IMG/VR virus record: IMGVR_UViG_3300037264_003978
Location: 1 to 33,120 of that record
DNA: 33,120 nucleotides
Source: a virus
Strand: one strand, 5' to 3'
A program made the position numbers and the translations under genes. Positions 3,287-24,574 of the stretch are shown here, in pieces. The first letter of the stretch is position 1. Each line of letters opens with the position of its first letter. The notes beneath the pieces were generated by a model that saw only the letters and a list, made by a program, of their open reading frames with translations, was not told the DNA's origin and did not search any database.

Positions 3287-3357
3287 GCCTTGGTAGTTAA
3301 ATGGTATAACAATAAGCTTGTAATTTATTATTGGGGGTTCGATTCCCTCCCGAGGCT
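3287..3357 (+). tRNA. tRNA-Thr (anticodon UGU)
   Basis: A full cloverleaf can be drawn by hand. The acceptor stem is GCCTTGG with CCGAGGC (one G-T pair), the D arm is GTTA/TAAC around AATGGTA, and the anticodon stem is ATAAG/TTTAT with loop CTTGTAA. The T arm is GGGGG/CCCTC with loop TTCGATT. Loop bases 34-36 read TGT, so it decodes ACA (threonine). The variable loop is four bases, the discriminator is T and no CCA is encoded. ACA is a common Thr codon in this AT-rich genome, so the tRNA probably supplements the host pool. Confidence 0.9.
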
Positions 3358-3366
3358 CAATAAAAA

Positions 3367-3395: not shown

Positions 3396-3446
3396 GATAT
3401 TGAGCGATGTGTTAAAAAATTTTGTTTCGGCATAAAACGTTGAAAA

Positions 3447-3455
3447 TGGTATAAT
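3447..3455 (+). promoter_or_regulatory. Extended -10 promoter of the glycan operon
   Basis: TGG plus TATAAT at 3450-3455. Two tandem ATGs follow at 3458 and 3461. The second is five bases beyond the -10, so the mRNA would be leaderless or nearly so. No convincing -35 is seen, as is allowed for extended -10 promoters. Confidence 0.6.
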
Positions 3456-3460
3456 AAATG

Positions 3461-3703
3461 ATGACTCCGATTTCTGTGGCTGAATGTGATGATTGTGGGA
3501 AATTTTTAATTTTTGATCCCGAATCTATTTGTTTTTTTGTTCTTGGAGATACGATAACTGGTGTATGTGTTTGTTCATTTTGTGATGGCCCTGTTATTTG
3601 TGAGGTTGATGTGGAGATAGTACATTCTATAGTGAGCAAAGACGCTAAAATGTTTTCTTGGGAAACCGGAGAACAAATTCCCCTTAGCGATTTAAGACAG
3701 TAG
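3461..3703 (+). CDS. Small zinc-ribbon protein, first gene before the glycan cassette
   Basis: An 80-aa protein (81 if the ATG at 3458 is used). It has two CxxC knuckles, CDDC near residue 9 and CSFC near residue 39, about 27 residues apart, the spacing of a zinc ribbon. It is acidic overall and ends SDLRQ. There is no Shine-Dalgarno sequence, and the start lies directly behind a TGGTATAAT element, so a leaderless transcript is likely. The stop is one base before the start of the first glycosyltransferase, so it probably heads that operon. A regulatory role is possible but not shown. Confidence 0.75.
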   Translation: MTPISVAECDDCGKFLIFDPESICFFVLGDTITGVCVCSFCDGPVICEVDVEIVHSIVSKDAKMFSWETGEQIPLSDLRQ

Positions 3704-3704: not shown

Positions 3705-4697
3705 TTGAAACGGTTAAGCTGGTTCACCTTGCCCGCGGGAACATTTATGGGTTATGGTTATTCTGCTGTATGTTTAATTCAAGCTTTGCAGAGACGTGAA
3801 ATTATTGTTAACTTCTTGGACCCAAAGGCTTATGTACATATTTCTTTTGTTCAACCTGAATATTATCAAACTATTGATAATCAATATCGAATAGGTTATA
3901 CACCATGGGAATCTACGGAAATTCCAATTGCGTGGGTAGACATGATGAAGGACCGAGATGAGATATGGACAACCTCTAAGTTCTGTCAAGATGTATACAC
4001 TAGTTATAATATAGAATCTATCGTTATTCCTCATGGCATAGACCCAGAGACATATAAAATTTATGATAGAACGTGTAATAATAGATTTATATTTCTTCAT
4101 ATTGGTAGTCCGACTGAACGTAAAGGTTCTCAGTTAGTTGTTGATGCTTTTGTGAAATTATTTGGCAATAGAGATGATGTCGGCTTAGTGATGAAGTCTA
4201 GTGGGCCAACTAATGCCAGGTGGATTGATGGAGAAGAATATTATGGGAACGCTGGTAATCACCCACGCATCAATGTGATTGAGCATGATCTTGAATTAGA
4301 AGATATGGCGAAGTTGTATAATGCTGCACATTGTTGTGTATATCCTGGAAATGGAGAAGGCTTTGGGCTCATCCCATTTCAGGCTATTGCTACGGGGTTG
4401 CCAACTATTGTTACGGACTTAACAGGAACAGCAGATTTTGCTCATTATTCCATGCCCTTAAAAGCAACATGGGGGCCGGGGGAAGGAATACATCTAGGAG
4501 ATTGGGCTATTCCTGATTTTGATCATCTATGTGAGTTGATGGAGCATGTGGTCAATAATTGGGAAGATGAAAAAAAGAAGGCCATGCATTCGGCCAATAT
4601 TATTCATAATACTCAAACATGGGACCATGTAATTGATCAGATGATAAACTTGTTAGGAGAGAAGGTAGAACAGTATGCTGAAGGATGGGAAGATTAG
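3705..4697 (+). CDS. GT-B glycosyltransferase, group 1 (GT4-like)
   Basis: A 330-aa retaining-type glycosyltransferase that would move a sugar from a nucleotide-sugar donor to a glycan or protein acceptor in the cytoplasm. The N-terminal Gly-rich loop is GTFMGYGYSA (12-21), IPHGID is at 108-113, and the donor-domain start GSPTERKG is at 134-141. The nucleotide-sugar motif GNGEGFGLIPFQAIATG is at 215-231. Family members usually have EX7E; here E218 is kept but the second Glu is Gln226. The TTG start at 3705 is needed to include the first beta strand; the ATG at residue 15 would cut into the Gly loop. It overlaps the next gene by 23 nt. Confidence 0.88.
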   Translation: MKRLSWFTLPAGTFMGYGYSAVCLIQALQRREIIVNFLDPKAYVHISFVQPEYYQTIDNQYRIGYTPWESTEIPIAWVDMMKDRDEIWTTSKFCQDVYTSYNIESIVIPHGIDPETYKIYDRTCNNRFIFLHIGSPTERKGSQLVVDAFVKLFGNRDDVGLVMKSSGPTNARWIDGEEYYGNAGNHPRINVIEHDLELEDMAKLYNAAHCCVYPGNGEGFGLIPFQAIATGLPTIVTDLTGTADFAHYSMPLKATWGPGEGIHLGDWAIPDFDHLCELMEHVVNNWEDEKKKAMHSANIIHNTQTWDHVIDQMINLLGEKVEQYAEGWED

Positions 4698-5364
4698 TTG
4701 TATCTTAACGAGTTATAATAGACCCGTCTGGCTTGACCAGGCTATTCAGTCTGTTGTTGATCAGACATATGATAATTGGGAATTGTTAATTATGGATGAT
4801 AATTCTTCTGATCCGCAAGTGGATAAAACTTTGGATGTTTATTCTACCCATAAAAAAATTAGAATATTTAAGTCTCATGTCCATTCGCTTGAAAGAATGG
4901 ATGTATGTAGATATGCCTATTTAATTAACGAGGGCTTTAGAGCGGCATCTGGAAAATATATTACGTATTTAACAGACGATGATTATTATTTACCCAAAAG
5001 ATTTGAAATTATGACCTCAAAGCTAGAGAGTGATTATTTTATTCATATTGTATACGGTTGGCAACAATTGCAATATGGGGATGACCCGCCTCACTCGGAG
5101 CGGGTTTATACAAGAGTATTAGATGATGCTTATGATATTGTAGATCATAATTCGGTGATGCACGATACAGAGCTTTTTAGGGAAGTTGGTGGATGGAATA
5201 TTTCTTCAGAATATTGGAGAGGGGCCGATGGGATTTTCTGGAGAAAGTTAACTAATGCTGGATATAAATTTTATCCGGTGAATAAATTTACAGATGTCCA
5301 TAGATTTCATGTTGGATCTGTAAGACATAAACTGTTGGAGCAGGGGTTGACAGACTTAAACTAA
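4675..5364 (+). CDS. GT-A family 2 glycosyltransferase
   Basis: A 229-aa inverting GT2-type enzyme. The first strand is KISCILTSYNRP, the nucleotide-binding DDNSSD is at 41-46 and the metal-binding acidic motif TDDDYYLP is around 100-107. A later GGWNISSEYWRGADG resembles the acceptor-side ED/GAD region, followed by a His-containing C-terminal loop. The start ATG at 4675 overlaps the previous gene by 23 nt and has AAGGTAG six to seven bases upstream, so it is translationally coupled. Donor and acceptor cannot be assigned. Confidence 0.9.
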   Translation: MLKDGKISCILTSYNRPVWLDQAIQSVVDQTYDNWELLIMDDNSSDPQVDKTLDVYSTHKKIRIFKSHVHSLERMDVCRYAYLINEGFRAASGKYITYLTDDDYYLPKRFEIMTSKLESDYFIHIVYGWQQLQYGDDPPHSERVYTRVLDDAYDIVDHNSVMHDTELFREVGGWNISSEYWRGADGIFWRKLTNAGYKFYPVNKFTDVHRFHVGSVRHKLLEQGLTDLN

Positions 5365-5365
5365 G

Positions 5366-5905
5366 ATGATAGGACTAATAGTTCCCACAATATCTAAAAC
5401 AACTTTGCCGGGAGCTATTCAATCTTTATATAATCAATCCAATCCGGATTGGAAGGTCATTGTTTGTGGAGATAGCCATATACCAGATTATCAATTTTTA
5501 GATGATAGGGTAAAAATTGTAGGTATACAACGTAAAGCTGAAGCTGGGTTGGTAAGAAATTATGGCGCACATTTATTAGATACGGAGTGGGTGGGATTTT
5601 TAGACGATGATGATGAACTATATCCCGAATATGTACAGACATTTTATGATAATCAAAAAGATACAGATGTATTAATTTATAAAATGATTAACTATGGTTC
5701 TATTATTCCTGATCAACCAATTATTCGCCATGGTCTTGTGGGGATTAGTTTTGCCCTAAAGAGAGAGATATTCTTGGATCATCCTTTTGATGGTCAGGGT
5801 GCGGGAGAGGATTATAGATTGTTATATACATTGGAAAAATTGGGGTATAAAATTAAATTTTTAGACTATGTTGGTTATCATGTTAGAAAGTATTTGGAGG
5901 ATTAA
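5366..5905 (+). CDS. Compact GT-A family 2 glycosyltransferase
   Basis: A 179-aa GT2-like enzyme, short for the family (usually 220-350 aa). It begins with the strand IGLIVPTISKTTL, has VRNYG at 63-67 typical of the segment before the metal site, and the acidic metal motif FLDDDDELYP at 78-87. The late GQGAGEDYRL resembles the catalytic-base ED motif. One base separates it from the upstream stop, and its own stop overlaps the next start (TAATG). The reduced length leaves little C-terminal acceptor domain. Confidence 0.87.
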   Translation: MIGLIVPTISKTTLPGAIQSLYNQSNPDWKVIVCGDSHIPDYQFLDDRVKIVGIQRKAEAGLVRNYGAHLLDTEWVGFLDDDDELYPEYVQTFYDNQKDTDVLIYKMINYGSIIPDQPIIRHGLVGISFALKREIFLDHPFDGQGAGEDYRLLYTLEKLGYKIKFLDYVGYHVRKYLED

Positions 5906-6498
5906 TGTTTGATGTAGTTGTTGTTTATCATTCAGAAACTAATTATCAGCAGCATCTGGTGGTTGTAGATAGACTTAGACAACATGCAGAGGGGCCATAT
6001 AATTTATATGTTCACGATAATTCTCAGGACAATATAGGTTTTGGTCCAGCATGTAATATAGAAGTTGCTAAGGGTCACTATCCTTTTATTGCTTTGCTCA
6101 ATCCAGATTGTTGGGTAGAAGGCCCATTTTTTGGAATAGTTCTAGATGTCTTTGCAGATCCAAGGATTAAGATTACTGGTGGAAATTTCAATAAGAACCC
6201 TGTGGAAATAAAAGATTGGGGATGTAAGGATTGGGTGTGCGGAGCGGCAATGTTTGTTCGCAGAGACTGGTGGAACGAAATGGGGGGATTTGACCCGCAG
6301 TTTGTGTGGAGCCATGAAGAAACTGATTTGATTCGTCGTAGCGAAACTGCTGGTGGTGTGGTAAAATCATTGGGGCCGGAAGAGTTGCCAATACTTCATT
6401 CGTCCCCCGCCATAGAGTCCCCGGAGGATTCTGCATATAAACAATATTGGATGGGAGAAGGAGCCCGACGTTTTCACGAAAAATGGAACCAAAAATAG
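5905..6498 (+). CDS. Rhamnosyltransferase-like GT2 glycosyltransferase
   Basis: A 197-aa GT2 enzyme of the rhamnosyltransferase-like type. The order is DNS at 38-40, GFGPACN at 45-51, the metal-site equivalent LLNPDCWV at 64-71, CGAAMFVRRDWW at 112-123, GGFDPQF at 127-133 and the general-base region HEETDL at 137-142. These spacings are typical of the WcaA/RfbF-like group. The start codon shares one base with the previous stop (TAATG). The sugar is likely a deoxyhexose or similar, but this is not provable here. Confidence 0.88.
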   Translation: MFDVVVVYHSETNYQQHLVVVDRLRQHAEGPYNLYVHDNSQDNIGFGPACNIEVAKGHYPFIALLNPDCWVEGPFFGIVLDVFADPRIKITGGNFNKNPVEIKDWGCKDWVCGAAMFVRRDWWNEMGGFDPQFVWSHEETDLIRRSETAGGVVKSLGPEELPILHSSPAIESPEDSAYKQYWMGEGARRFHEKWNQK

Positions 6499-7154
6499 CA
6501 TTAATGGTGATTACCGATGGTAGATATGACTATTTACATCAAACCATGGAATCAGCTACTAAAAATTTAATAGATATCTTTTATACTAAAATTATGGTAG
6601 ACGATAATCCTGTCGATGGATCTGACTCTTATTTAAGAAAACAATTTTCAGATTTTGAGGTGGTTCGTCAAGACAAGAAGTTGGGATTGGCGGGTGCAGT
6701 ACAATTGGGTTGGTATAGTATTCCAGAAGAAGTAGATTATATTTTTCATCTTGAAGAAGATTTTATTTTTAATACAAAGATTAATCCGTATTGGTTGGTT
6801 TCTATTTTAGAATTGCATCCATATCTATCTCAAGTAATTTTGAAAAGACAGCCATGGAGCGCAGAAGAGATTGAGGCTGGTGGGTATATTGAGATGAATC
6901 CCCAATCTTATATTGATCATGACGATGGAACTGGATTGATTTGGTGGTTAGAGCATCGACTATTTTTCTCTTTAAATCCAGGGGTATATAGAAAGTCTAT
7001 AACGAGAGATAGTTGGCCAAATGGCAACGAAGCGGAATTCACGGCTATTTTGAATGCCGATATGAACAATAGATTTGGCGTTTTTGGGAAACGCAATGAC
7101 CCCCCTCGCATAACACATATTGGTGGGGCTAGAAGCCCAGATTGGAAACTCTAA
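6483..7154 (+). CDS. GT-A glycosyltransferase-like protein
   Basis: A 223-aa protein. The ATG at 6483 is chosen over an upstream TTG at 6447 because MEPKIALMVITDGRYDYL gives the normal first strand at the N-terminus. VDDNPVDGS (39-47) matches the GT-A nucleotide site and FHLEEDFIF (88-96) the metal motif, as EED rather than DXD. The C-terminus has Trp-rich segments and GVFGKRNDPPRITHIGG. It overlaps its upstream neighbour by 16 nt and shares TAATG with the next gene. It is probably an active transferase of unknown sugar. Confidence 0.8.
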   Translation: MEPKIALMVITDGRYDYLHQTMESATKNLIDIFYTKIMVDDNPVDGSDSYLRKQFSDFEVVRQDKKLGLAGAVQLGWYSIPEEVDYIFHLEEDFIFNTKINPYWLVSILELHPYLSQVILKRQPWSAEEIEAGGYIEMNPQSYIDHDDGTGLIWWLEHRLFFSLNPGVYRKSITRDSWPNGNEAEFTAILNADMNNRFGVFGKRNDPPRITHIGGARSPDWKL

Positions 7155-7789
7155 TGTATGATCAAACATTTTTTGACCAAATTAATGAAGGATCTATAAG
7201 ATCAGCCCGTATAATTTTAAAAGAATTTTTTGACGGATTAGGATATATTCCAAACTCTATAGTTGATATAGGTTGTGGCGAAGGTGCTTGGCTCTATGTT
7301 GCTGAACAGATGGGAGTTTCGGATATTTTTGGATATGACGGATCTTACATAGATCCAGATAGATCATTAATTAGATCAGATCAATTCCTTCCTGCCGATC
7401 TTTCAAAATTGGGTTGGCCACATACAGAAGAAAAATTTGATATAGCCATTTCTTTGGAAGTTGCTGAACATCTTCCGGAATCAAGTGCTGATCATTTTGT
7501 AGAAATGTTATGTGAGTTTAGTGATATTATATTATTTTCTGCTGCCATTCCGGGTCAAGGTGGAGTTGGTCATATCAATGAACAGTGGCCGTCTTATTGG
7601 GTTAAAAAGTTTTGGAAGAGTGGATATTCCGGTACTGATTTATTGAGATGGATCATATGGGATAATCCAGATGTAGAAAATTGGTATAAACAAAATATTA
7701 TTGTATTTAGAAAATCTGACATTCCTGGTAAAATTCTAGATGTTGTGCATCCGGCAAATTGGAAAGCTCACTATTTGGATAAACTATGA
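7154..7789 (+). CDS. Class I SAM-dependent methyltransferase
   Basis: A 211-aa methyltransferase. SAM-binding motif I is VDIGCGEGAW at 37-46, the acidic end of strand 2 is in GYDGSYID around 60-67, and SLEVAEHLPE at 100-109 is the motif IV/post-motif typical of Methyltransf_11/23 enzymes. ATG 7154 overlaps the preceding TAA by one base; an upstream in-frame TTG at 7142 is unnecessary. Within this cassette it most likely methylates a sugar hydroxyl or an amino or carboxyl group on the glycan. The target is inferred from context. Confidence 0.9.
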   Translation: MYDQTFFDQINEGSIRSARIILKEFFDGLGYIPNSIVDIGCGEGAWLYVAEQMGVSDIFGYDGSYIDPDRSLIRSDQFLPADLSKLGWPHTEEKFDIAISLEVAEHLPESSADHFVEMLCEFSDIILFSAAIPGQGGVGHINEQWPSYWVKKFWKSGYSGTDLLRWIIWDNPDVENWYKQNIIVFRKSDIPGKILDVVHPANWKAHYLDKL

Positions 7790-8469
7790 GCAATCATCTA
7801 ATTTTTGTCGGGGCTGGTGGTCATGCAAAAGATATAATGAGTATTGTAGAGGCCCAAAATCAAAAGTTTAGATATTGGGCTGCTCATTGCTTTATTAGTG
7901 ACGACCCAAACTATTATAATAATAAATATCAAATATCCGGAACAGTGGATGATTTGCCAACTATAGAAGCATCTATTATGGAAGGCAGATTGATGTTTGC
8001 AGGGGATTTGTGGGCGGTTTATTATGTGGTTGCCATTAATGATTCACATATTCGAAAAACAATAACCCACAGAATTAGAGAAAATATGCCAACTCTTAGG
8101 GGGGTGACATTAGTTCATCCAACAGCTTGCTTATCTCGCGATATTAATGAATCACAATTTGTAGATGTAGTGATAGGACCAAATGTAACAATGACTGGTG
8201 GAGTTCGAATAGGTGCTGGAACTCATATTAATTCGTGTGTATCTATTAATCAAAGTTCTATAATCGGAGATTTTGTTACCATAGGTCCTGGCGCTAGAAT
8301 TTGTGGAGATGTAACTATTGAAGATGAAGTGCAAATAGGTGCTGGAGCTATTATTATTAATACCAAAACAGTTGGTGCTGGAGCTATTGTTGGGGCGGGG
8401 GCAGTAGTTATTGACAACATTCCCCCTGGCGAAACTGTAGCTGGAGTACCCGCTCGGAGTATACATTAA
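7786..8469 (+). CDS. NeuD/PglD-like sugar O/N-acyltransferase
   Basis: A 227-aa protein with the two-part build of NeuD/PglD enzymes. The N-terminal Rossmann-like domain has FVGAGGHAKD (7-16), and the C-terminal left-handed beta-helix of hexapeptide repeats spans about 128-210 (for example IGPNVT, IGAGTH, VGAGAI), ending in the typical VPAR near 221-224. It would transfer an acetyl group from acetyl-CoA to an amino sugar. Unusually, the position of the catalytic His in PglD/NeuD (family pattern IDHDC) reads INQSS here, with Gln156, and the later conserved FVHIAPGA reads FVTIGPGA. Its ATGA overlap with the upstream gene shows tight coupling. Confidence 0.88.
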   Translation: MSNHLIFVGAGGHAKDIMSIVEAQNQKFRYWAAHCFISDDPNYYNNKYQISGTVDDLPTIEASIMEGRLMFAGDLWAVYYVVAINDSHIRKTITHRIRENMPTLRGVTLVHPTACLSRDINESQFVDVVIGPNVTMTGGVRIGAGTHINSCVSINQSSIIGDFVTIGPGARICGDVTIEDEVQIGAGAIIINTKTVGAGAIVGAGAVVIDNIPPGETVAGVPARSIH

Positions 8470-9146
8470 TGTTTATTGTTCCTTGTAAATTTGATGCTGC
8501 GCATCCATATATTTTTGAATGTGTCAAAAATATTAGAGATAACCATCCAAAGGAGAAAATAGTTGTGGTTGATAGCAATTCTGAAGATTTATCTTATAAG
8601 GACTATATTGAAAAAAAATATGGCGCAGAAACTATTGTAGCTAAAAATATTAATTATGGTACCAATGCGTTTTATATAGCTTATTCTAAAAATTCTTGTG
8701 AAAATTATTATTATTGCTTATATGATTCTCTTATAGTTTATGATAATCTTTATGATTTACAAAAATATAATGTTACGGCAATTAGATATTTTCGTACACC
8801 TCCCACCGGATGGGGATATGACAAGGATGGAATAAGCTTGAAAGATTGGGCACAGGAAGAATTTGTTCGTTTCCAAATGGGACCCATTCCGGAAGGATTC
8901 TTTGGTATAATGGGACCAATGTTCGTAGCCAGTAATGAAGTTATGGGAAGGCTAGAAATGAGTGGTATATTTTCTATAAAGCCTACCGACAAATATCAGC
9001 TATGTGCTATGGAAAGAATGTATGGCATAGTGCTAGAAAACATGGGGCATGATTTTTGGACCCACTCCCTTCAGGGGGAGATGGGAGATTTTTTTGATAA
9101 TTATGAAAGTTCGAGGGTGAAAAAAATTAATGCAGCAAGAATGTAA
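8469..9146 (+). CDS. Probable GT-A-like protein of unknown activity
   Basis: A 225-aa protein. KIVVVDSNSED (30-40) resembles the nucleotide-binding strand and loop of GT-A transferases, and YYYCLYDSLIVYDN sits where the metal motif should be, but with a single Asp. The centre has a Pro/Gly loop (GPIPEGFFGIMGPMF) found in acceptor-binding regions. The start shares TAATG with the previous stop. I judge it a divergent glycosyltransferase on fold-like features and location. It might be inactive or use a metal-free mechanism. Confidence 0.65.
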   Translation: MFIVPCKFDAAHPYIFECVKNIRDNHPKEKIVVVDSNSEDLSYKDYIEKKYGAETIVAKNINYGTNAFYIAYSKNSCENYYYCLYDSLIVYDNLYDLQKYNVTAIRYFRTPPTGWGYDKDGISLKDWAQEEFVRFQMGPIPEGFFGIMGPMFVASNEVMGRLEMSGIFSIKPTDKYQLCAMERMYGIVLENMGHDFWTHSLQGEMGDFFDNYESSRVKKINAARM

Positions 9147-10509
9147 GCTTATTGTTTTTGATCTTGATGGTGTTTTAGTTGAGGCTAAAGATTTACATTT
9201 TCTTGCTCTTAATATGGCATTAGGCGATATAGATAAAGAATTTATTATCAGTGAAGAAGAACATCTTCTTAAATATGATGGTTTGCCAACCATAAAGAAA
9301 ATGGAGAAATTAGTTGAAATAGCTGGATTTCCTAAAAGCAAAGTGAAGTTGGTAGCTGAGAAAAAACAGCTTTATACAAAAAAATTAATTAAACAAAATA
9401 TTAAGCCTAATTCTCAAATATCCAATACATTATCATTTTTAAAAAAGGAAGGCTATACTGTGGCTGTTGCATCTAATTCCCTGTGGGCATCTATACAGCA
9501 AATGTTGACCGCTGCCGATCTTTTGAAACATGTAGATTATATTTTAGGAAATGACAATGTGAAACATCCAAAGCCAAATCCGGAAATCTATCTAAAATGT
9601 ATGATAGAATTCGGGGTGGGGCCACAGGAGACTTTGATTGTAGAGGATTCTGAGGTAGGTAGAAAGGCCGCTGCGGCGTCGGGAGCAAGAGTGTGTCCAG
9701 TTAATGCCCTGGAAGATGTTAGTAGAGATTATATTATGTCTTATATTGAAGATATTAAAATTAAACCACCAAAATGGAGGGACAATAAATTGAATATATT
9801 AATACCTATGGCTGGAGAAGGCAGTAGATTTGCCAAGGTTGGATATACTTTTCCAAAGCCATTAATAGACATCAATGGTAAGCCTATGATTCAAGTTGTT
9901 GTAGAAAATTTAAATATTGATGCTAGATATATTTTTATAGTTAAAAAAGAGCATTATAACAAATATAATTTAAAGCAGGTTCTTAATCTGATTGCCCCTG
10001 GGTGTGAGATTGTAATATTAGATTTTCCAACAGATGGTGCAGCCATAACAACTTTAGCTGCCGAAAAATTAATTGATAATGACAATCCATTATTAATTGC
10101 CAATTCAGATCAATATTTGGAGTGGGACAGCTCTAATTTTATGTATGCCGCAACGTCTTCTAAATGTGATGGTTATATTCCTGTTTTTGAAGCAACACAT
10201 CCAAAGTGGAGTTTTGTTAAACTAAATGAAAAGGGGTTGGTTATCAAGGTTGCCGAAAAGAGTCCTATTTCTAATTTAGCAACCGCTGGACTATATTATT
10301 GGAAGCGAGGAAGTGACTATGTTAAATATACCTATAAAATGACAGATAAAGATATCAAAACAAATGGGGAATTTTATATAGCTCCAGTTTATAATGAGGC
10401 AATAGCCGAACATCAAAAAATAGGAGCATATCATTTTGATAAAATGTGGGGGTTAGGAACTCCAGAAGATTTGCAATATTTTTTGCAAAATTTTTCTAAA
10501 AGACAATAA
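9130..10509 (+). CDS. Fused HAD phosphatase and sugar-phosphate nucleotidyltransferase
   Basis: A 459-aa bifunctional protein. The N-terminal HAD domain (about 1-210) has motif I DLDGV at 11-15 (Asp11/Asp13), motif II VASNS at 113-117, the motif III Lys in HPKPNPE near 146-152 and motif IV VEDSEVG at 171-177; it looks beta-phosphoglucomutase-like. The C-terminal nucleotidyltransferase (about 220-459) has IPMAGEGSRF at 225-234, FPKPL at 241-245 with Lys243, and ANSDQYL at 324-330. Together they suggest dephosphorylation or mutase action followed by NDP-sugar, or CDP-polyol-type, activation. The start overlaps the upstream gene by 17 nt. The nucleotide and sugar are not assignable. Confidence 0.9.
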   Translation: MQQECKLIVFDLDGVLVEAKDLHFLALNMALGDIDKEFIISEEEHLLKYDGLPTIKKMEKLVEIAGFPKSKVKLVAEKKQLYTKKLIKQNIKPNSQISNTLSFLKKEGYTVAVASNSLWASIQQMLTAADLLKHVDYILGNDNVKHPKPNPEIYLKCMIEFGVGPQETLIVEDSEVGRKAAAASGARVCPVNALEDVSRDYIMSYIEDIKIKPPKWRDNKLNILIPMAGEGSRFAKVGYTFPKPLIDINGKPMIQVVVENLNIDARYIFIVKKEHYNKYNLKQVLNLIAPGCEIVILDFPTDGAAITTLAAEKLIDNDNPLLIANSDQYLEWDSSNFMYAATSSKCDGYIPVFEATHPKWSFVKLNEKGLVIKVAEKSPISNLATAGLYYWKRGSDYVKYTYKMTDKDIKTNGEFYIAPVYNEAIAEHQKIGAYHFDKMWGLGTPEDLQYFLQNFSKRQ

Positions 10510-10511
10510 AA

Positions 10512-11213
10512 ATGATTACAGAAAATAATAAATATACAAAAATGCAACGGGATGAATATAATAGAGATGCACATATAATGAAAATAGATAATCATTCTAT
10601 TCATAATAATAATCCAGATTATTGGAACATTCTTTTGAAACCAATTTTAGATGATCTAAATAAATGGGAAGACAAAGTATCTTTAGATTTTGGGTGTGGA
10701 ACTGGTAGAAATATTCACAATCTTTTGCAAGCGGCAAAATGGGAACAAGTTGATGGTGTAGATATAAGTGCAAACAATATTTCTTGGGCAGAGACTATTT
10801 TATGTGAACAGGGGCACGATAGAAGTAAATATGAATTATATATTAACGACGGAGTAACTCTTCCAATGAAAGACGAAAAATATGATTTTGTTATGTCTAC
10901 TATTGTATTTCAACATATATGTGTCTATGAAATTAGGAAAAATCTTTTGAAAGAAATATATCGTGTTTTAAAATATGGAGGACTTTTTAGTTTTCAAATG
11001 GGATTTGGTATAGGACATCCAAGTACACAACATTATTATGAAAATTATTATGATGCTATAGGGACCAATAGTCAAATGGATGTCAGGGTAGAAGACCCAG
11101 AACAAATAATTAATGATTTATCAGATATGGGATTTAAAAGAAGTAAATATATTATTTCCAATTCATGGTCGGATAGTCATCTAGAATGGATATTTGTTGA
11201 GGCATTTAAATGA
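10512..11213 (+). CDS. Class I SAM-dependent methyltransferase
   Basis: A 233-aa methyltransferase. Motif I is LDFGCGTGRN at 58-67, the acidic strand-2 end is VDGVDIS at 80-86, and the motif IV-like MSTIVFQHI lies around 136-144, followed by EIYRVLKYGGLFSFQ, a classic post-II/III segment of Methyltransf_11 enzymes. It has an Asn- and Asp-rich N-terminal extension of about 55 residues. A two-base gap separates it from the nucleotidyltransferase gene, and its stop overlaps the next start (ATGA). It is likely a sugar methylase within the glycan pathway. Confidence 0.92.
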   Translation: MITENNKYTKMQRDEYNRDAHIMKIDNHSIHNNNPDYWNILLKPILDDLNKWEDKVSLDFGCGTGRNIHNLLQAAKWEQVDGVDISANNISWAETILCEQGHDRSKYELYINDGVTLPMKDEKYDFVMSTIVFQHICVYEIRKNLLKEIYRVLKYGGLFSFQMGFGIGHPSTQHYYENYYDAIGTNSQMDVRVEDPEQIINDLSDMGFKRSKYIISNSWSDSHLEWIFVEAFK

Positions 11214-11944
11214 TTGCTTATATTTTCTATGTGCATAATACCATGACCCTTTTCCAAATAGAGATGGCAATCAAAAGTATAGACAAATCAAAAGATATAT
11301 CTGGAGATTTATGGCTACATAATTCATCTGATGAGTTTTCTGAATCTGAAATATTGGAGAAACTAGATATAGTCAAAGGTCGTTTTAATCAAATAAGATG
11401 GATAAATAACAAAGATAGTTCGGTGGCTGGTGATATTTCCAATCAGATTAATGTTATTGATGGATATGATCAATATTTTTGTCATAAGGCAGATTTTTAT
11501 TTAAGTCCATTTTCATTTACCAATAGTATTAATAAGCTTCAAAGCTCTGCAGTAGATCCAATGTATATAAATTTCTGTAAATTTGATTTAAGGGAGAACT
11601 TTAATTATGATATAATTGGAAAAATATCAAATTTAGCTTTTGATAAAATTTTAGACAAAAAATGGGCATGTGATATGACTGACAGTATGCCAGAAGATTT
11701 TGGTATTCACTATGAGGCCATGGGTTATAGGGGGGTGGATGGAGTTATGCATTCATATAATGAAAAAGCTAGAGAAAAGCTAATTGTAAGTACATATTGG
11801 GAACAATCTTCTGTAGATTTAAATAAATTGAATGGGATAAATATGCTATATGGAATAAAAGATATTTATGCGTTTCATATATTCCACGAAATTCCGGGTG
11901 GCCGTATAGCGGATGTAAAAAATATAGAAGGATATAGGTTTTAA
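11210..11944 (+). CDS. Probable GT-A-like protein, unknown
   Basis: A 244-aa protein starting with a strand (MIAYIFYVHN) followed by LWLHNSSDEFSE, similar in layout to the nucleotide-binding half of a GT-A fold, and YFCHKADFYLSP at 89-100 where a DXD-like motif would lie. The C-terminal half ends GIKDIYAFHIFHEIPGG, with a His pair reminiscent of metal-binding C-terminal histidines. I do not recognise a named family. It is linked by ATGA and TAATG overlaps to a methyltransferase and a glycosyltransferase, which supports a role in the same glycan. Confidence 0.62.
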   Translation: MIAYIFYVHNTMTLFQIEMAIKSIDKSKDISGDLWLHNSSDEFSESEILEKLDIVKGRFNQIRWINNKDSSVAGDISNQINVIDGYDQYFCHKADFYLSPFSFTNSINKLQSSAVDPMYINFCKFDLRENFNYDIIGKISNLAFDKILDKKWACDMTDSMPEDFGIHYEAMGYRGVDGVMHSYNEKAREKLIVSTYWEQSSVDLNKLNGINMLYGIKDIYAFHIFHEIPGGRIADVKNIEGYRF

Positions 11945-12708
11945 TGACACAAAAAGTATATGCAATTTCTATGGTAAGAGATGAGAAAGATATTATTAAA
12001 TATAGTATTAATTATTTAATGTCACAAAATATAGATGGTATGATTATAGCTGATAATATGTCAGAAGATGGTACGCAATTTATTTTGTCTAGATTGCAAG
12101 AAAAATGGGGAGATATGCTAACTATTGTTCAAGACAATGAGCCTGCATATTATCAATCCCAAAAAATGACAGACTTGGCCCATTTGGTTCATAAAGATTT
12201 CGGGGCAGAATGGATTATCCCATTTGATGCCGATGAATTTTGGTACTCTAAGCATGGCAAAATAGGCCCTGTATTAAAGAATACAGAAGAAGATGTTGTG
12301 ATTGCACCAGTATGGCATATGGTTTTAAAAAATTCTGATGATATGAATTTGCCACCACAAGCAAGGATGAATTATAGAAGGGAACAACCAGAACAATTTC
12401 CGGTCGTAGCATTTAGATATAATTCTGATATCATTATTCATCAAGGCAATCATGATGTTGATCATGCCGGGGCCAGAATTCATGGTACAATAGAAGTAAA
12501 ACATTATCAATATAGATCATTTTCGCAGTTTGTACATAAAGTTAGAAATGGTGCTGAAGCATATAATGCCACAGATTTACCATATGGACAAGGCCAACAT
12601 TGGAGAGAGTATAGTGCTATGTCAGATGAAGACTTACAAAAGGAGTGGGATCAAATGAGCAATGAAGTTAATCTTGTATATGATCCATTGAGCTATGTGG
12701 GTAATTAA
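11944..12708 (+). CDS. GT2-type glycosyltransferase (Glyco_tranf_2_4-like)
   Basis: A 254-aa transferase. The N-terminal MVRDEKDIIKYSINY (10-24) is the hallmark of the Glyco_tranf_2_4 subgroup. IIADNMSEDGT at 34-44 is the nucleotide site, and IPFDADEFW at 92-100 is the metal-binding DXDE motif. Later YRREQ and HQGNHDVDHAG add conserved basic and His residues, and VKHYQYRSFSQFVHKV is typical of the family's C-terminus. The start shares one base with the previous stop. It is probably active; the donor is unknown. Confidence 0.9.
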   Translation: MTQKVYAISMVRDEKDIIKYSINYLMSQNIDGMIIADNMSEDGTQFILSRLQEKWGDMLTIVQDNEPAYYQSQKMTDLAHLVHKDFGAEWIIPFDADEFWYSKHGKIGPVLKNTEEDVVIAPVWHMVLKNSDDMNLPPQARMNYRREQPEQFPVVAFRYNSDIIIHQGNHDVDHAGARIHGTIEVKHYQYRSFSQFVHKVRNGAEAYNATDLPYGQGQHWREYSAMSDEDLQKEWDQMSNEVNLVYDPLSYVGN

Positions 12709-12711
12709 ATA

Positions 12712-13269
12712 ATGTATAGTGACGAACTATCTGAGGCTAGGTGGACACCCCCTAGTGATTTTTGTAAAAATCCCCAATACTGGCATTCTGATGATAATGA
12801 ATCTACGGAGCATGAAGTGACGGCGCTTGTGGCGGCTTTTATTGTGGGGCTTCAACCGGAGTTTGTATTGGAAACGGGCACAGCTTTTGGCCAAACAGCC
12901 TTTGCTATTGGTAAAGCTCTTCAGCAAAATGGGCATGGCGCTTGTGTATCAATAGACACAGATGGTGGACGATTAGATTTGGCTGTTAGTAGATGTCTGG
13001 GCTTACCTGTAAGTTTTTGGGGAGGCAATGCCCTAGATTATAAACCTTCAGAATTAATAGATTTTGCATGGGTGGACACAGGTGGCAATAGGGCCGTTGA
13101 GCTAGAAACTATGCATAAATTTTGTAATAAAGGTGCTATTGTAGGTATACATGATACTGGTCCGCAACATTTGGTGCGGGTGAGTTTGGAGCCTATTTTT
13201 AATCAAGGATTATATAGGCCAATCTTTTTAAGAACGCCAAGGGGCGTATGTTTTGCTGAGGTCCTATGA
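12712..13269 (+). CDS. Class I SAM methyltransferase (Methyltransf_24-like)
   Basis: A 185-aa protein. Motif I is FVLETGTAFGQTA at 51-63, where Glu replaces the more common Asp, and the strand-2 acidic end is CVSIDTDGG at 78-86. DFAWVDTGGN and GIHDTGPQ further on match the metal and product loop of Methyltransf_24 O-methyltransferases. The base composition is less AT-rich than its neighbours over parts of the gene, for example around 12820-12950. It follows the upstream gene after three bases and overlaps the next by ATGA. Methylation of the glycan is a likely role. Confidence 0.85.
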   Translation: MYSDELSEARWTPPSDFCKNPQYWHSDDNESTEHEVTALVAAFIVGLQPEFVLETGTAFGQTAFAIGKALQQNGHGACVSIDTDGGRLDLAVSRCLGLPVSFWGGNALDYKPSELIDFAWVDTGGNRAVELETMHKFCNKGAIVGIHDTGPQHLVRVSLEPIFNQGLYRPIFLRTPRGVCFAEVL

Positions 13270-13988
13270 AATATGTTGGTATAGTGATGCCCACGTTGAC
13301 ACAGTTTGAATTAGGGCTTAAAGCTTTACAATCTGTGGTGACCAAACATCGTTGGACGCCATTTATAATTCCCAATTGGGAAAAGAGGATGGCCGTTACA
13401 GTCAGTTGGAATTTGGGAATAAATCAAGCTATTAGAAAAGGAGCAGATTATATATTGGTAGTAAATGATGATATTTTATTTAGTCCGTGGACAATAGATG
13501 GTCTTGTCAGTTATTTTGAATCAGCGGATGATTCCATAGCAATAGTAACTGGACACAATGTGCGTGGGCAAATAGAAAATCCAGATGATATATTCTCATG
13601 GCCTTGTCCAGAGTTTCCCAATGTTGATGAAGAACACCCAGATTTTGCATGCTTTATGATTAAACCATCTACGATAGAAAACATAGGAAATTTTGACGAG
13701 AATTTTACACCGGCTTATTTTGAAGATAATGATTATCATCGAAGAATAAATTTATTGGGATATAAAGCTAGATTTACAGCATCTGCCCCATATTATCATT
13801 ATGGTTCCAGGACACAAAATAACGATTCTAATATTCCGGTTGTCCCCCCCTTTGCTTTTGAATTAAATAGAGCATATTACATTAATAAATGGCAAGGAGA
13901 TGTAGGGTCGGAAACGGCATTACATCCATATGGAAATGAAAGTTTGTCTCCTAAGCACTGGATAGATGAAAATGGCAACTTGCATTAG
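13266..13988 (+). CDS. GT2-type glycosyltransferase, last gene of the cassette
   Basis: A 240-aa transferase. The first strand is YVGIVMPTLTQ (3-13), SWNLGINQAI is at 47-56 (the equivalent of the RN-aG segment), and the metal motif is VVNDDILFS at 65-73. GNFDENFTPAYFEDNDYHRR holds the GGFDE-like and general-base ED motifs, and SAPYYHYGSRT is a typical C-terminal His loop. These spacings match N-glycosyl/rhamnosyltransferase-like GT2 proteins. It ends the run of fourteen coupled genes and is followed by 196 nt of non-coding sequence. Confidence 0.9.
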   Translation: MKYVGIVMPTLTQFELGLKALQSVVTKHRWTPFIIPNWEKRMAVTVSWNLGINQAIRKGADYILVVNDDILFSPWTIDGLVSYFESADDSIAIVTGHNVRGQIENPDDIFSWPCPEFPNVDEEHPDFACFMIKPSTIENIGNFDENFTPAYFEDNDYHRRINLLGYKARFTASAPYYHYGSRTQNNDSNIPVVPPFAFELNRAYYINKWQGDVGSETALHPYGNESLSPKHWIDENGNLH

Positions 13989-13995
13989 AATAGAG

Positions 13996-14032
13996 GGCAG
14001 AAAGTTTTGATATTTTTTTTATCAATTCTGCC
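13996..14032 (+). terminator. Imperfect hairpin after the glycan operon
   Basis: A seven-base-pair outer stem (GGCAGAA with TTCTGCC) and a five-base-pair inner stem (TTGAT with ATCAA) are separated by a four-base bulge on the 5' side. The loop is A followed by eight Ts. The place is right for a terminator, but the T-run sits in the loop and not after the stem, so function is uncertain. Confidence 0.4.
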
Positions 14033-14103
14033 ATGACCTCTAGGCGCTGGTAAAAAATTTTCAATGTTCCTAGGGAGCGTAGCTGGCTTTCGTGGGGCTG
14101 GAT

Positions 14104-14112
14104 TGGTACAAT
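14104..14112 (+). promoter_or_regulatory. Weak extended -10 before the reductase gene
   Basis: TGG plus TACAAT at 14107-14112 differs from consensus by one base, and there is no recognisable -35. A start near 14119 would give a leader of about 66 nt to the GTG at 14185. Confidence 0.35.
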
Positions 14113-14184
14113 AGAGATGTTGAACTTAGGGACCACTAGACGGCTACCCTTATTTATTTTTTCACTTTTTTAGAATGGAGCAAT

Positions 14185-16191
14185 GTGGGATCTGATCATT
14201 TATCTTTTCATCTTAGCGATGAATTTGTTAATAAATATAAAAACGTAAAGCCTAGTTGGGGATTTCCTATAGGCGCTAATAATAGTTTAGGTGAGTTAAC
14301 CTATATTACTAAGTACGCTCGCATTAAAGATAATGGGCAGAAAGAACGCTGGTTTGAGTGTACCAGGCGGGTCATTGAAGGAATGTATTCTATTCTTAAA
14401 GATCATTGCATAGAAAATAAAACTCCATGGAATCATCCCAAAGCACAGCGAAGTGCTGAAGATGCTTTTGATAGAATGTTTAATTTTAAATGGACACCCC
14501 CTGGACGGGGGTTATGGATGATGGGTACAAAATTTATAAGTGAACACTTATCTGCTAGTTTACAAAATTGTGGGTTTCAATCCACCCAGCACTTGGGAGT
14601 GAGGAATCCTACCAGACCTTTTGTACGTCTTATGGAAATGTCTATGCTTGGTATTGGTGTGGGCTTTGATACTCAGGGTGCAGGAAAATTGGCAATCTAC
14701 AGTCCCAACGCAGATAAAGTGGAAACCATAGTGATAGAAGATTCAAGGGAGGGGTGGTGTGAATCTGTAGATAGATTATTGCAATCATATTTATTGCCTC
14801 ATCAAAATGCAGTAGAATTTAATTATTCTTTAATTCGTAAGGGTGGTTCTCCCATTAAGGGATTTGGAGGTATAGCTGCCGGGCCAGAGCCATTAATAGC
14901 TTTGCACCAAAGGCTTTCATTATTGCTTGATAATAGAAACTCTGAAAAAATAACATCTACTGATATAGTAGATATCATGAATATGATTGGGTTGTGTGTT
15001 GTGTCTGGAAATGTTCGACGCTCTGCTGAGTTGGCTCTTGGGGATGCAGATGACAAAGATTTTTTGACCCTTAAGGATTGGCGAATTAATCCAGAAAGGA
15101 TGGGGCCATCTGGTTGGGGGCATTTATCAAATAATTCTATTTTTGCACACTCTGGTGAGAATTATAATCATTTGATTGAATCAATAGTGCTTAATGGAGA
15201 ACCTGGATTAATTTATATGGACATAACTAGGGGGTATGGAAGATTGATAGACCCCAAAAATAATAAAGACTATAGAGTGGCAGGAGTAAATCCTTGTGCC
15301 GAACAGAGTTTAGAGGATCAAGAATTATGCACCTTGGTAGAAACTTATCCTATTAAGCATGAATCATTGGAAGATTATTTGGCAACCATTAAAGTTGCAT
15401 ATTTATATGGCAAGGCAGTTACTATGTTGCCTACTCATTGGCCAGAGACTAATGAAGTAATGACTAGAAATAGAAGAATTGGAACGTCAATGTCGGGAAT
15501 CGTACAATTTGCAGAAAGATATGGATGGGAACAACTTCGTAAATGGTCGGATACTGCTTATGCAGAGATAAATCGGCGGGATCAAAAATACTCCGAATGG
15601 CTAGGCGTCAGAGAGTCTATTAAGACCACCACAATCAAGCCTAGCGGTACTGTGTCGCTATTGGCGGGAGTTACTCCTGGTGTTCATTGGCCGGTGGCAG
15701 CCGATTATTATATTAGGCGGCAAAGATTTTCTAAGCATGATGGTGCTGTTCCAGTTTTTATTGATGCTGGTTATCATGTAGAGCCAGATGCCGTGGATGA
15801 TGAAAATACAGTAGTGATAGAGTTTCCTACAATTGGACCTTCGGTTAGGTCAGAAAAAGATGTATCGGTATGGGAGAAGGTGGCTTTGGCTGTATTGATG
15901 CAAAGACATTGGGCTGACAATGCTGTTTCAGCTACGTTCACCTTTAGAGAAGATGAGCATAGTGAGATTGAAGCTGTATTGAGAGCTTTTGCTGGACAGC
16001 TAAAATCTGTATCATTTCTTCCTATATATGATGGGGGCGCATATAAGCAAATGCCATATGAGCCTATTGAAGAAGATGTGTATAGAACTATGATAGAGGG
16101 TCTAAAGCCTATTGATTGGAAAAGGTTATATAGGTCAGGAGTAGAGGCCGAGGGAGAGAAATTTTGCACAAATGATACTTGTCTAATATAA
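14185..16191 (+). CDS. nrdJ: Adenosylcobalamin-dependent (class II) ribonucleotide reductase
   Basis: A 668-aa class II ribonucleotide reductase of the monomeric Lactobacillus type. It reduces ribonucleotides to deoxyribonucleotides using a B12-derived radical and needs no second subunit or oxygen. Key residues align by spacing with the L. leichmannii enzyme: redox Cys129 (QNCGFQST) with Cys382 (QELCTL), thiyl-radical Cys371 inside NPCAEQ with Asn369 and Glu373, and the C-terminal relay pair Cys661/Cys666 (CTNDTC). The PSGT phosphate loop is at 486-489. The GTG at 14185 has GGAG four bases before it; no ATG in frame is nearby. It depends on cobalamin made or imported by the host. It lies between the glycan cassette and the head genes. 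Confidence 0.95.
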   Translation: MGSDHLSFHLSDEFVNKYKNVKPSWGFPIGANNSLGELTYITKYARIKDNGQKERWFECTRRVIEGMYSILKDHCIENKTPWNHPKAQRSAEDAFDRMFNFKWTPPGRGLWMMGTKFISEHLSASLQNCGFQSTQHLGVRNPTRPFVRLMEMSMLGIGVGFDTQGAGKLAIYSPNADKVETIVIEDSREGWCESVDRLLQSYLLPHQNAVEFNYSLIRKGGSPIKGFGGIAAGPEPLIALHQRLSLLLDNRNSEKITSTDIVDIMNMIGLCVVSGNVRRSAELALGDADDKDFLTLKDWRINPERMGPSGWGHLSNNSIFAHSGENYNHLIESIVLNGEPGLIYMDITRGYGRLIDPKNNKDYRVAGVNPCAEQSLEDQELCTLVETYPIKHESLEDYLATIKVAYLYGKAVTMLPTHWPETNEVMTRNRRIGTSMSGIVQFAERYGWEQLRKWSDTAYAEINRRDQKYSEWLGVRESIKTTTIKPSGTVSLLAGVTPGVHWPVAADYYIRRQRFSKHDGAVPVFIDAGYHVEPDAVDDENTVVIEFPTIGPSVRSEKDVSVWEKVALAVLMQRHWADNAVSATFTFREDEHSEIEAVLRAFAGQLKSVSFLPIYDGGAYKQMPYEPIEEDVYRTMIEGLKPIDWKRLYRSGVEAEGEKFCTNDTCLI

Positions 16192-16732: not shown

Positions 16733-18382
16733 ATGCCACATACTGCAGAATTAGTAGAAGAAAATTTGATTACTGATAATGATACTGTTGTATATCTAAA
16801 TGATATTGATATAGAAATGTTGCATGATGATATGGAAGCAGTTTCGAATGATCCTTTTTTAAAAATTAACAAATCTAGCCTTAGTCGTAAAAGTAAAGCC
16901 AAGTGGTCTAGATTACAAAAAAAGCTAGAAGGTACTGGCGGTGCCGAAACAAAGTATGTAGATCCAGAGGCAGTAACGGCATATGCTATTTTTGATTTAG
17001 CGGTTCCTCCTTTTGATCTAGACGCTCTGGCCGCACTGTTTGAAGAAAATGCTATTTTGCAAGCCGCTGTTACTGCTAGAGCAATGAACACGGTTGGATT
17101 GGGATTTTCTTGGGCTCCAAATATTAAGGCTCAAAAGCAAACTGAAAAATCTTCTTTGTCTGCCATGAAAGCCGATAAGACTAGGACTTTTCATCAGAAG
17201 CATATGGAAGGTCTATATGAAATGTTTGAAGGATTTAATGATGAAGAAACTATGGTGGAAACATTAATTAAAGTTTGGACAGACACTTTGGTATTGGGAA
17301 ATGGATATTTAGAAATTGGTAGACAGCGTAATGGTAAGGTAGGATATGTAGGCCATATTCCTGGTCATTTGATGAGAATCAGAAAAGCGCGTGATGGTTT
17401 TGTACAAAGTGCCAATCAGACAAATATATTTTTTAGAAATTTGGGAGATGCGGAAACACCAGATCCAATTAATGATGATGATAGTCCCAATGAAGTTATT
17501 AATTTTAAAATGTATTCACCCAGAAATTCATATTATGGAGTGCCACCTAGCGTTTCTGCATTATCTGCTTTAGTGGGTGATAAATTTGCACAAGAGTATA
17601 ATATTGATTACTTTGAAAATAAGGCCATACCTAGATATGCCATTATTTTGAAGGGGTTCAAATTATCAGAGAAAAGCAAAAAAGAATTAATTAGCTATTT
17701 TAGAAATGAGCTTAAGGGAAAAAGCCATGGAACATTGGTAGTTCCAATACCAGCCACTATCGGAAGCAATACGCAGACTGATGTAAGATTTGAAAAACTT
17801 GAAGCTGGTTCACAAGATTCGTCTTTTGATAAATACAGAAAAGCCAATAGAGATGAGATTGTAGTTGCATATCGTGTTCCCCCAACTAAAATTGCTATTT
17901 TTGAAAGTGCCAACTTGGCGATTGCTAGAGACGCAGATAAAACTTTTAAGACCCAGGTGGTGGGGCCTGATCAACATACAATTGAGAGGAAACTGGATAG
18001 GGTTGTTAGGGAGTTCTCAGATTTGTTTACATTTAAATTAAATCAATTAGATATTGTTGATGAGGATATTCAATCTAGAATTAATGATAGATATTTGAGA
18101 ACAGAGGTAATCACTCCAAATGAGGCTAGACAGTCTATCAATAAGCCACCTATTGATGGAGGCGATGCGGTATTGCCGTATCCCGTTAAAGCTAAAATGG
18201 AAGCAGATAAAAACAATGTCTCTAGTCCTGGGGCACCTATCGGTAATGCGAATTCAGCGGCTACCAATCCGCCCAAATCGGGGGAAGACAATAAAACTAT
18301 ACCTAGCGATAAGGATGTAGTTGGTGAAAACGCGGTAGATGGGCAAGTTCAAGACTCTAAAGGGGTTAGAGAAAAAGAATAG
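16733..18382 (+). CDS. Phage portal protein
   Basis: A 549-aa portal subunit (HK97/SPP1-like phage_portal superfamily). As a dodecamer it forms the ring at one vertex of the procapsid, gates DNA entry and anchors the neck. A variable acidic N-terminus (1-60) leads into the wing and stem; LGNGYLEIGRQRNG, MYSPRNSYYGVPP and SALSALVGDKFAQEYNIDYF are typical core segments. VAYRVPPTKIAIFESANLA is the conserved region near the clip and crown. The last 50 residues are Pro/Asn/Gly/Asp-rich and likely disordered. AGGGGAA lies eight bases before the ATG. No terminase is beside it, which is unusual for this gene order. Confidence 0.93.
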   Translation: MPHTAELVEENLITDNDTVVYLNDIDIEMLHDDMEAVSNDPFLKINKSSLSRKSKAKWSRLQKKLEGTGGAETKYVDPEAVTAYAIFDLAVPPFDLDALAALFEENAILQAAVTARAMNTVGLGFSWAPNIKAQKQTEKSSLSAMKADKTRTFHQKHMEGLYEMFEGFNDEETMVETLIKVWTDTLVLGNGYLEIGRQRNGKVGYVGHIPGHLMRIRKARDGFVQSANQTNIFFRNLGDAETPDPINDDDSPNEVINFKMYSPRNSYYGVPPSVSALSALVGDKFAQEYNIDYFENKAIPRYAIILKGFKLSEKSKKELISYFRNELKGKSHGTLVVPIPATIGSNTQTDVRFEKLEAGSQDSSFDKYRKANRDEIVVAYRVPPTKIAIFESANLAIARDADKTFKTQVVGPDQHTIERKLDRVVREFSDLFTFKLNQLDIVDEDIQSRINDRYLRTEVITPNEARQSINKPPIDGGDAVLPYPVKAKMEADKNNVSSPGAPIGNANSAATNPPKSGEDNKTIPSDKDVVGENAVDGQVQDSKGVREKE

Positions 18383-24028: not shown

Positions 24029-24574
24029 ATGGCAGTTACATTTACAAGTATTTTAGTAGGTGAAGGTACGATTTTTGTAGGCACAACGGCTGGTAATGCA
24101 GTAGATGTGGGATCAACACAAGATGGAGTCTCAATCTCTTGGGAGCCTAGCATGGTTGATATTGAAATTGACCAGTTTGGTGATGCCGCAAGAGTGGTGC
24201 AATCAAGAGTTAAAGTTATGGCAAAAACGACGTTGGCGGAAGCCACTTTGGTTAACTTGGCTTTAGGTTGGGGATACGCAACAGGCGTAACCGCAACCCA
24301 ACCAGGTTTGCAGACGGGTGGACTTATTTTCAACTTTGGTTTGCATGGTGTTTATCCAGAAGAGAAATACATGAAGATTGTGGGTAATGCCCCCGGTTCT
24401 ACGGCCACCATTATTAAGACAAGAACATATGAGAATAATCGAGTGGTTCAGTATGGTTCTTCTGAGCATTCATTGCAAAGAGCCGACAATGTGAAAATTC
24501 CGGTAGAGTTTAGAATCTTGCCCCAAGTATCTGCGACGGGTAAAGAGTACGGAACAATCACAGATCAACCCTAA
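24029..24574 (+). CDS. Major tail (tube) protein
   Basis: A 181-aa protein with a typical tube-protein beginning (VTFTSILVGEGTIFVG, then STQDGVSISWEPSMVDIEID) and repeated beta strands ending NVKIPVEFRILPQ. It polymerises into hexamer rings around the tape measure. AGGAGG lies about seven bases before the ATG. The gene is followed by a strong long hairpin that would keep tube expression above that of the chaperones, as usual for tail modules. I put it in the lambda gpV/SPP1-like tube group from layout and length. Confidence 0.82.
   Translation: MAVTFTSILVGEGTIFVGTTAGNAVDVGSTQDGVSISWEPSMVDIEIDQFGDAARVVQSRVKVMAKTTLAEATLVNLALGWGYATGVTATQPGLQTGGLIFNFGLHGVYPEEKYMKIVGNAPGSTATIIKTRTYENNRVVQYGSSEHSLQRADNVKIPVEFRILPQVSATGKEYGTITDQP

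Follow-up and report, generated by a model that had tools for sequence, protein, structure and literature searches.

The complete IMG/VR record IMGVR_UViG_3300037264_003978 (33,120 bases; hereafter, the window), handled here as a phage genome fragment, contains a cassette of 14 genes for predicted glycosyltransferases (GTs) and accessory enzymes that starts with a conserved GT4 family gene. The other 13 genes form an insertion between GT4 and the gene for a ribonucleotide reductase (RNR), two core genes that are otherwise adjacent, and the cassette as a whole is pieced together from blocks seen in other phages. Judging from the predicted protein families and gene neighborhoods, the cassette probably (with a probability of about 0.6) encodes a soluble pathway for stepwise, virus-encoded glycosylation of virion proteins, most likely, the capsid and/or the tail-tube protein. 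Loci of this kind are already known; what is new is the 13-gene mosaic insertion at the otherwise closed GT4-RNR junction.

Gene content and insertion site of the cassette

All 14 open reading frames (ORFs) between positions 3705 and 13988 are located on the plus strand, intact and translationally coupled, with a largest gap of 3 bases (distances between neighbors, in order: -23, +1, -1, -52, -13, -4, -1, -17, +2, -4, -1, +3 and -4 bases), in agreement with the original prediction, which was made from the sequence alone. Three genes start with TTG, and two of these also have later ATGs. The proteins were assigned to families using Pfam, NCBIfam and PHROGs and, in the case of GT_c and GT_g, hhalign profile comparison. 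The cassette encodes one GT4, six GT2-type proteins, two probable or unproven transferase-like proteins, three S-adenosylmethionine (SAM) methyltransferases (MTa, MTb and MTc), a NeuD-like acyltransferase and a HAD domain fused to a nucleotidyltransferase (HAD-NTP enzyme). Four GT2 proteins score above the Pfam cut-off, and GT_c and GT_g group with them at 97-98% by hhalign. The single GT-B enzyme, the three methyltransferases and the activating enzyme proposed originally are thus all matched by known families; of the up to eight proposed GT-A enzymes, six are GT2-type, and GT_e and the product of 11210-11944 are unproven. GT_e is probably a transferase as suggested by its GT2 profile score of 14.6 bits and a best homologue with E = 4.5e-4. 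The protein encoded at 11210-11944 belongs to no family in Pfam, NCBIfam or PHROGs and has no relatives in phages, viral contigs or any ORF of the fetched loci. The AlphaFold models of this orphan and of GT_e (predicted local distance difference test scores of 38 and 47, respectively) are too poor for a fold search. None of the 14 proteins contains a convincing transmembrane segment (maximum 19-residue hydropathy, 1.61), and no flippase, polymerase, initiating phosphoglycosyltransferase or GtrA/GtrB-type membrane protein was recognized among them by Pfam, NCBIfam or hydropathy. Base composition was considered as an indication of foreign origin and is a weak one: the GC content at third codon positions is 0.26 in the cassette vs. 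0.30 in the other genes (p = 0.07), with low overall GC (0.29-0.30) in MTb and the orphan gene.

In each of the 84 other loci in which GT4 occurs together with a matching RNR (some of these loci overlap on one contig), the two genes are separated by 6 to 127 bases (median 71). The corresponding distance in the window is 9,487 bases, with 13 genes in between. Given that the junction is closed in all 84 of these loci, the 13 genes are an insertion between two otherwise adjacent core genes, beyond chance. The closest cassette carrier by capsid is L166 (loci fetched for comparison are denoted by L numbers), with 77% identity to the window in the capsid protein and 61% in both the portal protein and GT4. 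In L166, the order GT4-GT2b-GT_c-GT2d-GT2f-GT_g is the same as in the window, which additionally contains GT2a after GT4, MTc before GT_g and, separating GT2d from GT2f, the block from MTa to the orphan gene. The transferases common to the two loci are only 39-50% identical, compared with 61-77% for GT4, portal and capsid, which indicates that the cassette evolves faster than the core or was exchanged. Related gene sets in L169, L170 and L389 are located several kilobases upstream of GT4, near ThyX and endolysin genes; several tRNA genes of mixed types lie between these sets and GT4, marking a variable region. No such gene set is present in the examined stretches of L167, L168, L171 and L172. 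Thus, the comparison across related phages that was originally proposed recovers the same families in relatives and additionally reveals the mosaic insertion at a fixed site, which was beyond the view of that prediction.

In L166 and L167, the two relatives closest by GT4, the RNR position (6229-8256 and 4988-6895, respectively) is occupied by another RNR type (Pfam Ribonuc_red_lgC/lgN) that phmmer does not match to the RNR of the window and that shows just 23-24% identity to it in partial blastp alignments, indicating displacement by a distant RNR at the fixed site. At the left border, the EX7E motif of GT4 has the form E218...Q226, and the glutamine is invariant in five of five aligned relatives, suggestive of a family-wide active-site variant.

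Proximity to RNR could also point to the phage DNA as the target, with modified bases being glycosylated as protection against restriction, and DNA-directed phage transferases that add diverse glycans do exist (Pyle 2024, as summarized in PMC12619734). This role, one of two alternatives offered in the original prediction, appears highly improbable: GT4 and RNR are ancestral neighbors irrespective of the cassette, the scanned proteins of the window (a 33-kb fragment of an incomplete genome) include neither a recognizable base hydroxymethylase nor any other recognizable base-modifying enzyme, and three methyltransferases and an acyltransferase would be unusual for it.

Mosaic architecture and the sugar-activating enzyme

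The cassette combines blocks that are found in other phages, namely GT2b-GT_c-GT2d, MTa-NeuD, GT_e-HAD-NTP and HAD-NTP-MTb. The HAD-NTP-MTb junction is present in 30 other loci, GT_e-HAD-NTP in three, MTa-NeuD in two, and GT2b-GT_c and GT_c-GT2d in one each; the remaining 8 of the 13 internal junctions were not seen in other loci. Elsewhere, GT2d is directly followed by GT2f in eight loci and by NeuD in six, and NeuD by GT2f in seven. These recurrent pairs show that the site of the largest extra block of the window is an insertion site in other phages as well. In five loci of unrelated phages, which have other packaging or tail genes than the window, GT2d and GT2f, with at most one gene between them, are located by terminase (L475, L481 and L482), portal (L477) or tape-measure (L474) genes, in line with a role in the virion.

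Such a mosaic, with most junctions unique, an orphan gene without relatives and a NeuD-like protein that lacks the usual catalytic residue, is compatible with a loosely selected hotspot collection without a joint product, or with a small soluble glycoside or glycolipid that has another role. Both possibilities seem quite unlikely because all 14 frames are intact and coupled and every assignable gene fits one functional theme. Furthermore, five genes keep their order in L166 at just 39-50% protein identity, which implies selection to retain them.

The HAD-NTP enzyme retains the DxDG motif of the HAD domain and the GxGSRF motif of the nucleotidyltransferase domain, the latter covered by phrog_3980, and is 50% identical over its full length to cyanophage proteins. 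Relatives are present in at least 583 viral stretches and in SAR11 genomes. Accordingly, the notion that a dedicated sugar-activation enzyme is a special feature of this cassette has to be abandoned: it is a widespread protein of aquatic phages and SAR11. In phages, the preceding gene usually encodes a GT-A-like protein of about 215 residues, and the following gene is often MTb-like or GDPD-like. In SAR11, the HAD-NTP gene adjoins a small GDPD-like gene in regions resembling cell-surface polysaccharide loci. GDPD-like proteins of 140-150 residues with an HRGN...EN motif are encoded at or near the HAD-NTP gene in L331 (7568-8011), L334 (7571-8002), L169 (2944-3387) and 12 phage loci. The joint occurrence of the two proteins in SAR11 and phages suggests a shared pathway. 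Under the simplest reading, the neighborhood would activate and transfer a single sugar, which in some cases would also be methylated. The annotation of 4evw, the best solved relative, goes no further than nucleoside-diphosphate-sugar pyrophosphorylase, and the sequence does not name the sugar.

Predicted role in virion glycosylation

Given that the cassette proteins contain no convincing transmembrane segment, a lipid-linked glycan is a poorer fit than a soluble acceptor, and the additional lack of a flippase, a polymerase and a lipid-linked initiating enzyme implies that the acceptor should be cytoplasmic. Virion proteins are the best candidates: the cassette lies by the head genes, GT4 is conserved in the relatives, and the locus is similar in kind to gp108-gp110 of mycobacteriophage Che8. 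In the predicted pathway, the HAD domain would make a sugar-1-phosphate by mutase or phosphatase action, the fused nucleotidyltransferase would convert it into a nucleoside diphosphate sugar, and the remaining donors would be supplied by the host. GT4, the sole transferase kept in all relatives, would supply the virion protein with its first sugar or with an early one, and the chain would be extended by GT2a, GT2b, GT_c, GT2d, GT2f and GT_g, perhaps also by GT_e and the orphan protein. MTa, MTb and MTc would O-methylate the chain, and the NeuD-like protein would acylate it if active. The expected product is a branched or long O-methylated oligosaccharide built in the cytoplasm during assembly, and gain or loss of gene blocks in different lineages would alter this surface glycan. 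A more specific scenario can be offered only tentatively, being possible but doubtful: the type of virion glycan might be switched by block exchange at the fixed site between RNR and the founder GT4, in a phage version of capsule-locus switching, and the particle might carry a methylated oligosaccharide with at most about nine sugars.

To our knowledge, the phages with demonstrated virion glycosylation are limited to a few mycobacteriophages, each with a small number of genes for it. The closest case in kind is a trio of Che8 genes overlapping by 4 bases, in which gp108 combines a GT2 domain with a C-terminal Methyltransf_24 domain, gp109 is GT2-like and gp110 belongs to GT25. These are coupled actinophage genes with GT2 and Methyltransf_24 domains, similarly to the cassette, and GT2b shows a weak match to the GT2 domain of gp108 (hhalign, 92.7%; blastp, E = 7.6e-4), with 32% for GT_g and gp109. 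Unlike the cassette, they are located near the right genome end, without a GT4, an acyltransferase or a nucleotidyltransferase. In secondary accounts of Freeman 2023 (PMC12363180, PMC12619734 and PMC11256854), Che8 gp110 and Corndog gp38 are described as indispensable for glycosylation of the capsid (PMC12363180), and glycans are placed at the C-termini of capsid and tail-tube subunits (PMC12363180, PMC12619734). In Streptomyces phages of the Stanwilliamsviridae (LukeCage gp43, Faust gp18-gp19 and Coruscant) and in Rhodococcus phage Grayson (gp62), GT4 homologs with 30-37% identity to the GT4 of the window are encoded directly upstream of RNR. Only one or two transferases are encoded at these loci, with no cassette between GT4 and RNR; in the Streptomyces phages, the head genes follow. 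Virion glycosylation has been suggested for the phage cluster of Grayson by its authors (PMC13313380). The loci L166, L170/L389 and L169 share both the lineage and the gene families of the window.

More distant analogs differ in several respects. Kyanoviridae cyanophages S-CAM9 and B23 encode the HAD-NTP fusion within a run of closely packed transferase genes but have T4-like genomes and other transferase families. The host recognition cluster of pelagimyophages is likewise a variable, GT-rich island in the structural region of an aquatic phage, but it is T4-like and GT8-rich and contains tail fibers (PMC7029224). In chlorovirus PBCV-1, several mostly soluble viral transferases and a methyltransferase produce a capsid glycan in the cytoplasm (PMC5408694), as proposed here; this is only a functional analogy because PBCV-1 is a large virus of eukaryotic algae with scattered genes and an unrelated capsid. 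Thus, the set is unusually large, as originally noted, in comparison with cultured relatives that have one or two GTs or, in Che8, three genes, but not when compared with the cyanophage sets, which are of comparable size and include the same fused enzyme, or with the GT-rich pelagimyophage islands. We regard the cassette as a large variant of the glycosylation loci of actinophages, with virion proteins as candidate acceptors.

The pelagimyophage island, which is in a comparable position, was interpreted by its authors as modifying the host O-chain (PMC7029224). By analogy, the cassette could alter the host surface polysaccharide during infection, with a host glycan extended or decorated in the cytoplasm and then exported by the host machinery, possibly to keep other phages from adsorbing or progeny from binding again. 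The SAR11 neighborhoods of the HAD-NTP and GDPD-like genes, and the related set near endolysin and away from the head genes in L169 and L170, are compatible with such a role. Although this is the main rival reading, it is considered unlikely: the cassette is embedded in the structural module beside the conserved GT4, and all 14 proteins lack the components that define dedicated surface polysaccharide systems. In particular, the membrane flippase and polyprenyl-phosphate transferase of Gtr-type serotype conversion (GtrA/GtrB/GtrX) have no match here at the Pfam cut-off or by hydropathy, and the initiating transferase, flippase and polymerase of Wzx/Wzy-type clusters are not encoded among the 14 genes. 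Lasting serotype conversion is less plausible because no integrase or repressor was recognized within the 33-kb window.

Apart from the pelagimyophage precedent, several observations weigh against virion glycosylation. Che8 gp110 (GT25) has no homolog in the window, and the gp108 match is weak. Some related blocks are located away from virion genes, next to a DnaB-like helicase gene in L470 and L471 (in L471, also RNR) or near ThyX and endolysin genes in L169 and L170. No structural gene was found whose presence tracks that of the cassette. Residues ~210-250 of the capsid protein form a Gly/Ser/Thr-rich insert relative to Streptomyces phages; this loop was rejected as an acceptor specific to cassette carriers because it occurs lineage-wide, whether a cassette is known or not. 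Finally, the acyltransferase of the original prediction is recognizable by its PglD_N and Hexapep domains (TIGR03570, 136.5 bits, below the 160.8 cut-off), but in the window and in L170 (3961-4575) a glutamine aligns with the histidine that we take to be the catalytic residue of PglD/VioB-type acetyltransferases. This replacement in both phages indicates that the protein is either inactive or works by another mechanism. Altogether, the initial reading is partly supported: an actinophage-like genome does carry a cassette for glycan assembly within its structural module, and virion glycosylation is the best-supported role.

With a recombining cassette of 14 genes at one fixed site, this aquatic, actinophage-like lineage would make glycan switching on phage particles testable. 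The fixed site with nested gain and loss of genes, which provides natural gene-content variants for comparison, is of main interest. The small soluble transferases and methyltransferases could also serve as a set for glycan engineering, and families labelled unknown, such as phrog_3980, gain functional hypotheses.

Phage affiliation and surrounding genes

The major capsid protein is 54% identical to those of Streptomyces phages of the Stanwilliamsviridae, and the nearest isolates for capsid, portal and GT4 are Streptomyces phages. The order GT4, RNR, portal, protease, capsid, in which the cassette is embedded just upstream of the head genes (Table 1), is that of a homologous, collinear block in LukeCage, Faust and Coruscant; in these phages, endolysin and LamG genes separate RNR from the head genes, which is not the case in the window. 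The likeness to Stanwilliamsviridae consists in this block and, for a genome fragment, is not a formal family placement. The nearest match of the RNR (52.5%) is from Actinomycetia phage DSL-LC01 from a lake; a neighboring "beta-mannosyltransferase" of that phage was considered and is unrelated to any transferase of the window. The capsid and gene order, the RNR match and the TATAAT box upstream of the zinc-ribbon gene jointly make an aquatic actinobacterial host likely.

Table 1. Cassette genes and neighboring features of the window
Feature	Coordinates	Strand	Support or context
tRNA-Thr(tgt)	3287..3358	+	ARAGORN, Rfam; upstream of cassette
Extended -10 promoter-like site, TCGGCA-17-TATAAT	3427..3455	+	Consensus scan, upstream comparison; sequence match alone
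Small CxxC zinc-ribbon-like gene	3458..3703	+	Adjoins GT4 in relatives, conserved
GT4 glycosyltransferase (GT-B), conserved core gene	3705..4697	+	Glycos_transf_1, 41 bits; phrog_2170, 162 bits
GT2a, LTDDD motif	4675..5364	+	Pfam GT2, 72 bits
GT2b, DDDD motif	5366..5905	+	Pfam GT2, 39 bits; nearest to Che8 gp108 GT2 domain
GT_c, GT2-like, NPD...GGFD...ED motifs	5905..6498	+	hhalign, 97% to 13266-13988
GT2d, recurrent partner of GT2f	6447..7154	+	Pfam GT2, 26 bits
MTa, SAM methyltransferase	7142..7789	+	Methyltransf_23/11; 47% to L170
NeuD/PglD-like hexapeptide acyltransferase	7786..8469	+	PglD_N, Hexapep; TIGR03570
GT_e, probable GT-A-like (unproven), partner of HAD-NTP gene	8469..9146	+	GT2 profile
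HAD (beta-phosphoglucomutase-like) fused to sugar-1-phosphate nucleotidyltransferase	9130..10509	+	HAD, NTP_transferase
MTb, SAM methyltransferase	10512..11213	+	Pfam; downstream of HAD-NTP gene
Orphan protein, possibly GT-A-like	11210..11944	+	No family, no relatives found
GT2f	11944..12708	+	Glyco_tranf_2_4, 47 bits
MTc, SAM methyltransferase	12712..13269	+	Methyltransf_24, family of Che8 gp108 C-terminal domain
GT_g, GT2-like, NDD and FEDND motifs	13266..13988	+	hhalign, 97.7% to 4675-5364; phrog_29879 (galactosyltransferase), 75 bits
Class II-type RNR	14185..16191	+	Right border of insertion
Portal protein	16733..18382	+	Structural context
Head maturation protease	18697..20145	+	Structural context
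Major capsid protein	20166..21194	+	Candidate glycan acceptor
Ig-domain major tail protein	24029..24574	+	Candidate glycan acceptor

The location of the cassette between the zinc-ribbon gene and the reductase and head genes is as originally described. A TATAAT box immediately before the zinc-ribbon start is also present in L166, L167 and L168 and would be compatible with a transcript that has no leader or almost none. A tRNA-Thr near GT4 is shared by LukeCage, Faust, Coruscant, the window and L166, and a link with O-glycosylation of threonine was considered for this reason; it was rejected because other relatives have mixed tRNAs or none near GT4. The cassette and RNR are separated by a 196-base noncoding spacer (13989-14184) with T runs; this spacer may harbor a terminator as well as a new promoter. 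Both ends of the fragment (3-758 and 32177-33118) encode Ser/Thr-rich proteins (23-24% Ser+Thr, 14% Thr) that are possibly virion proteins.

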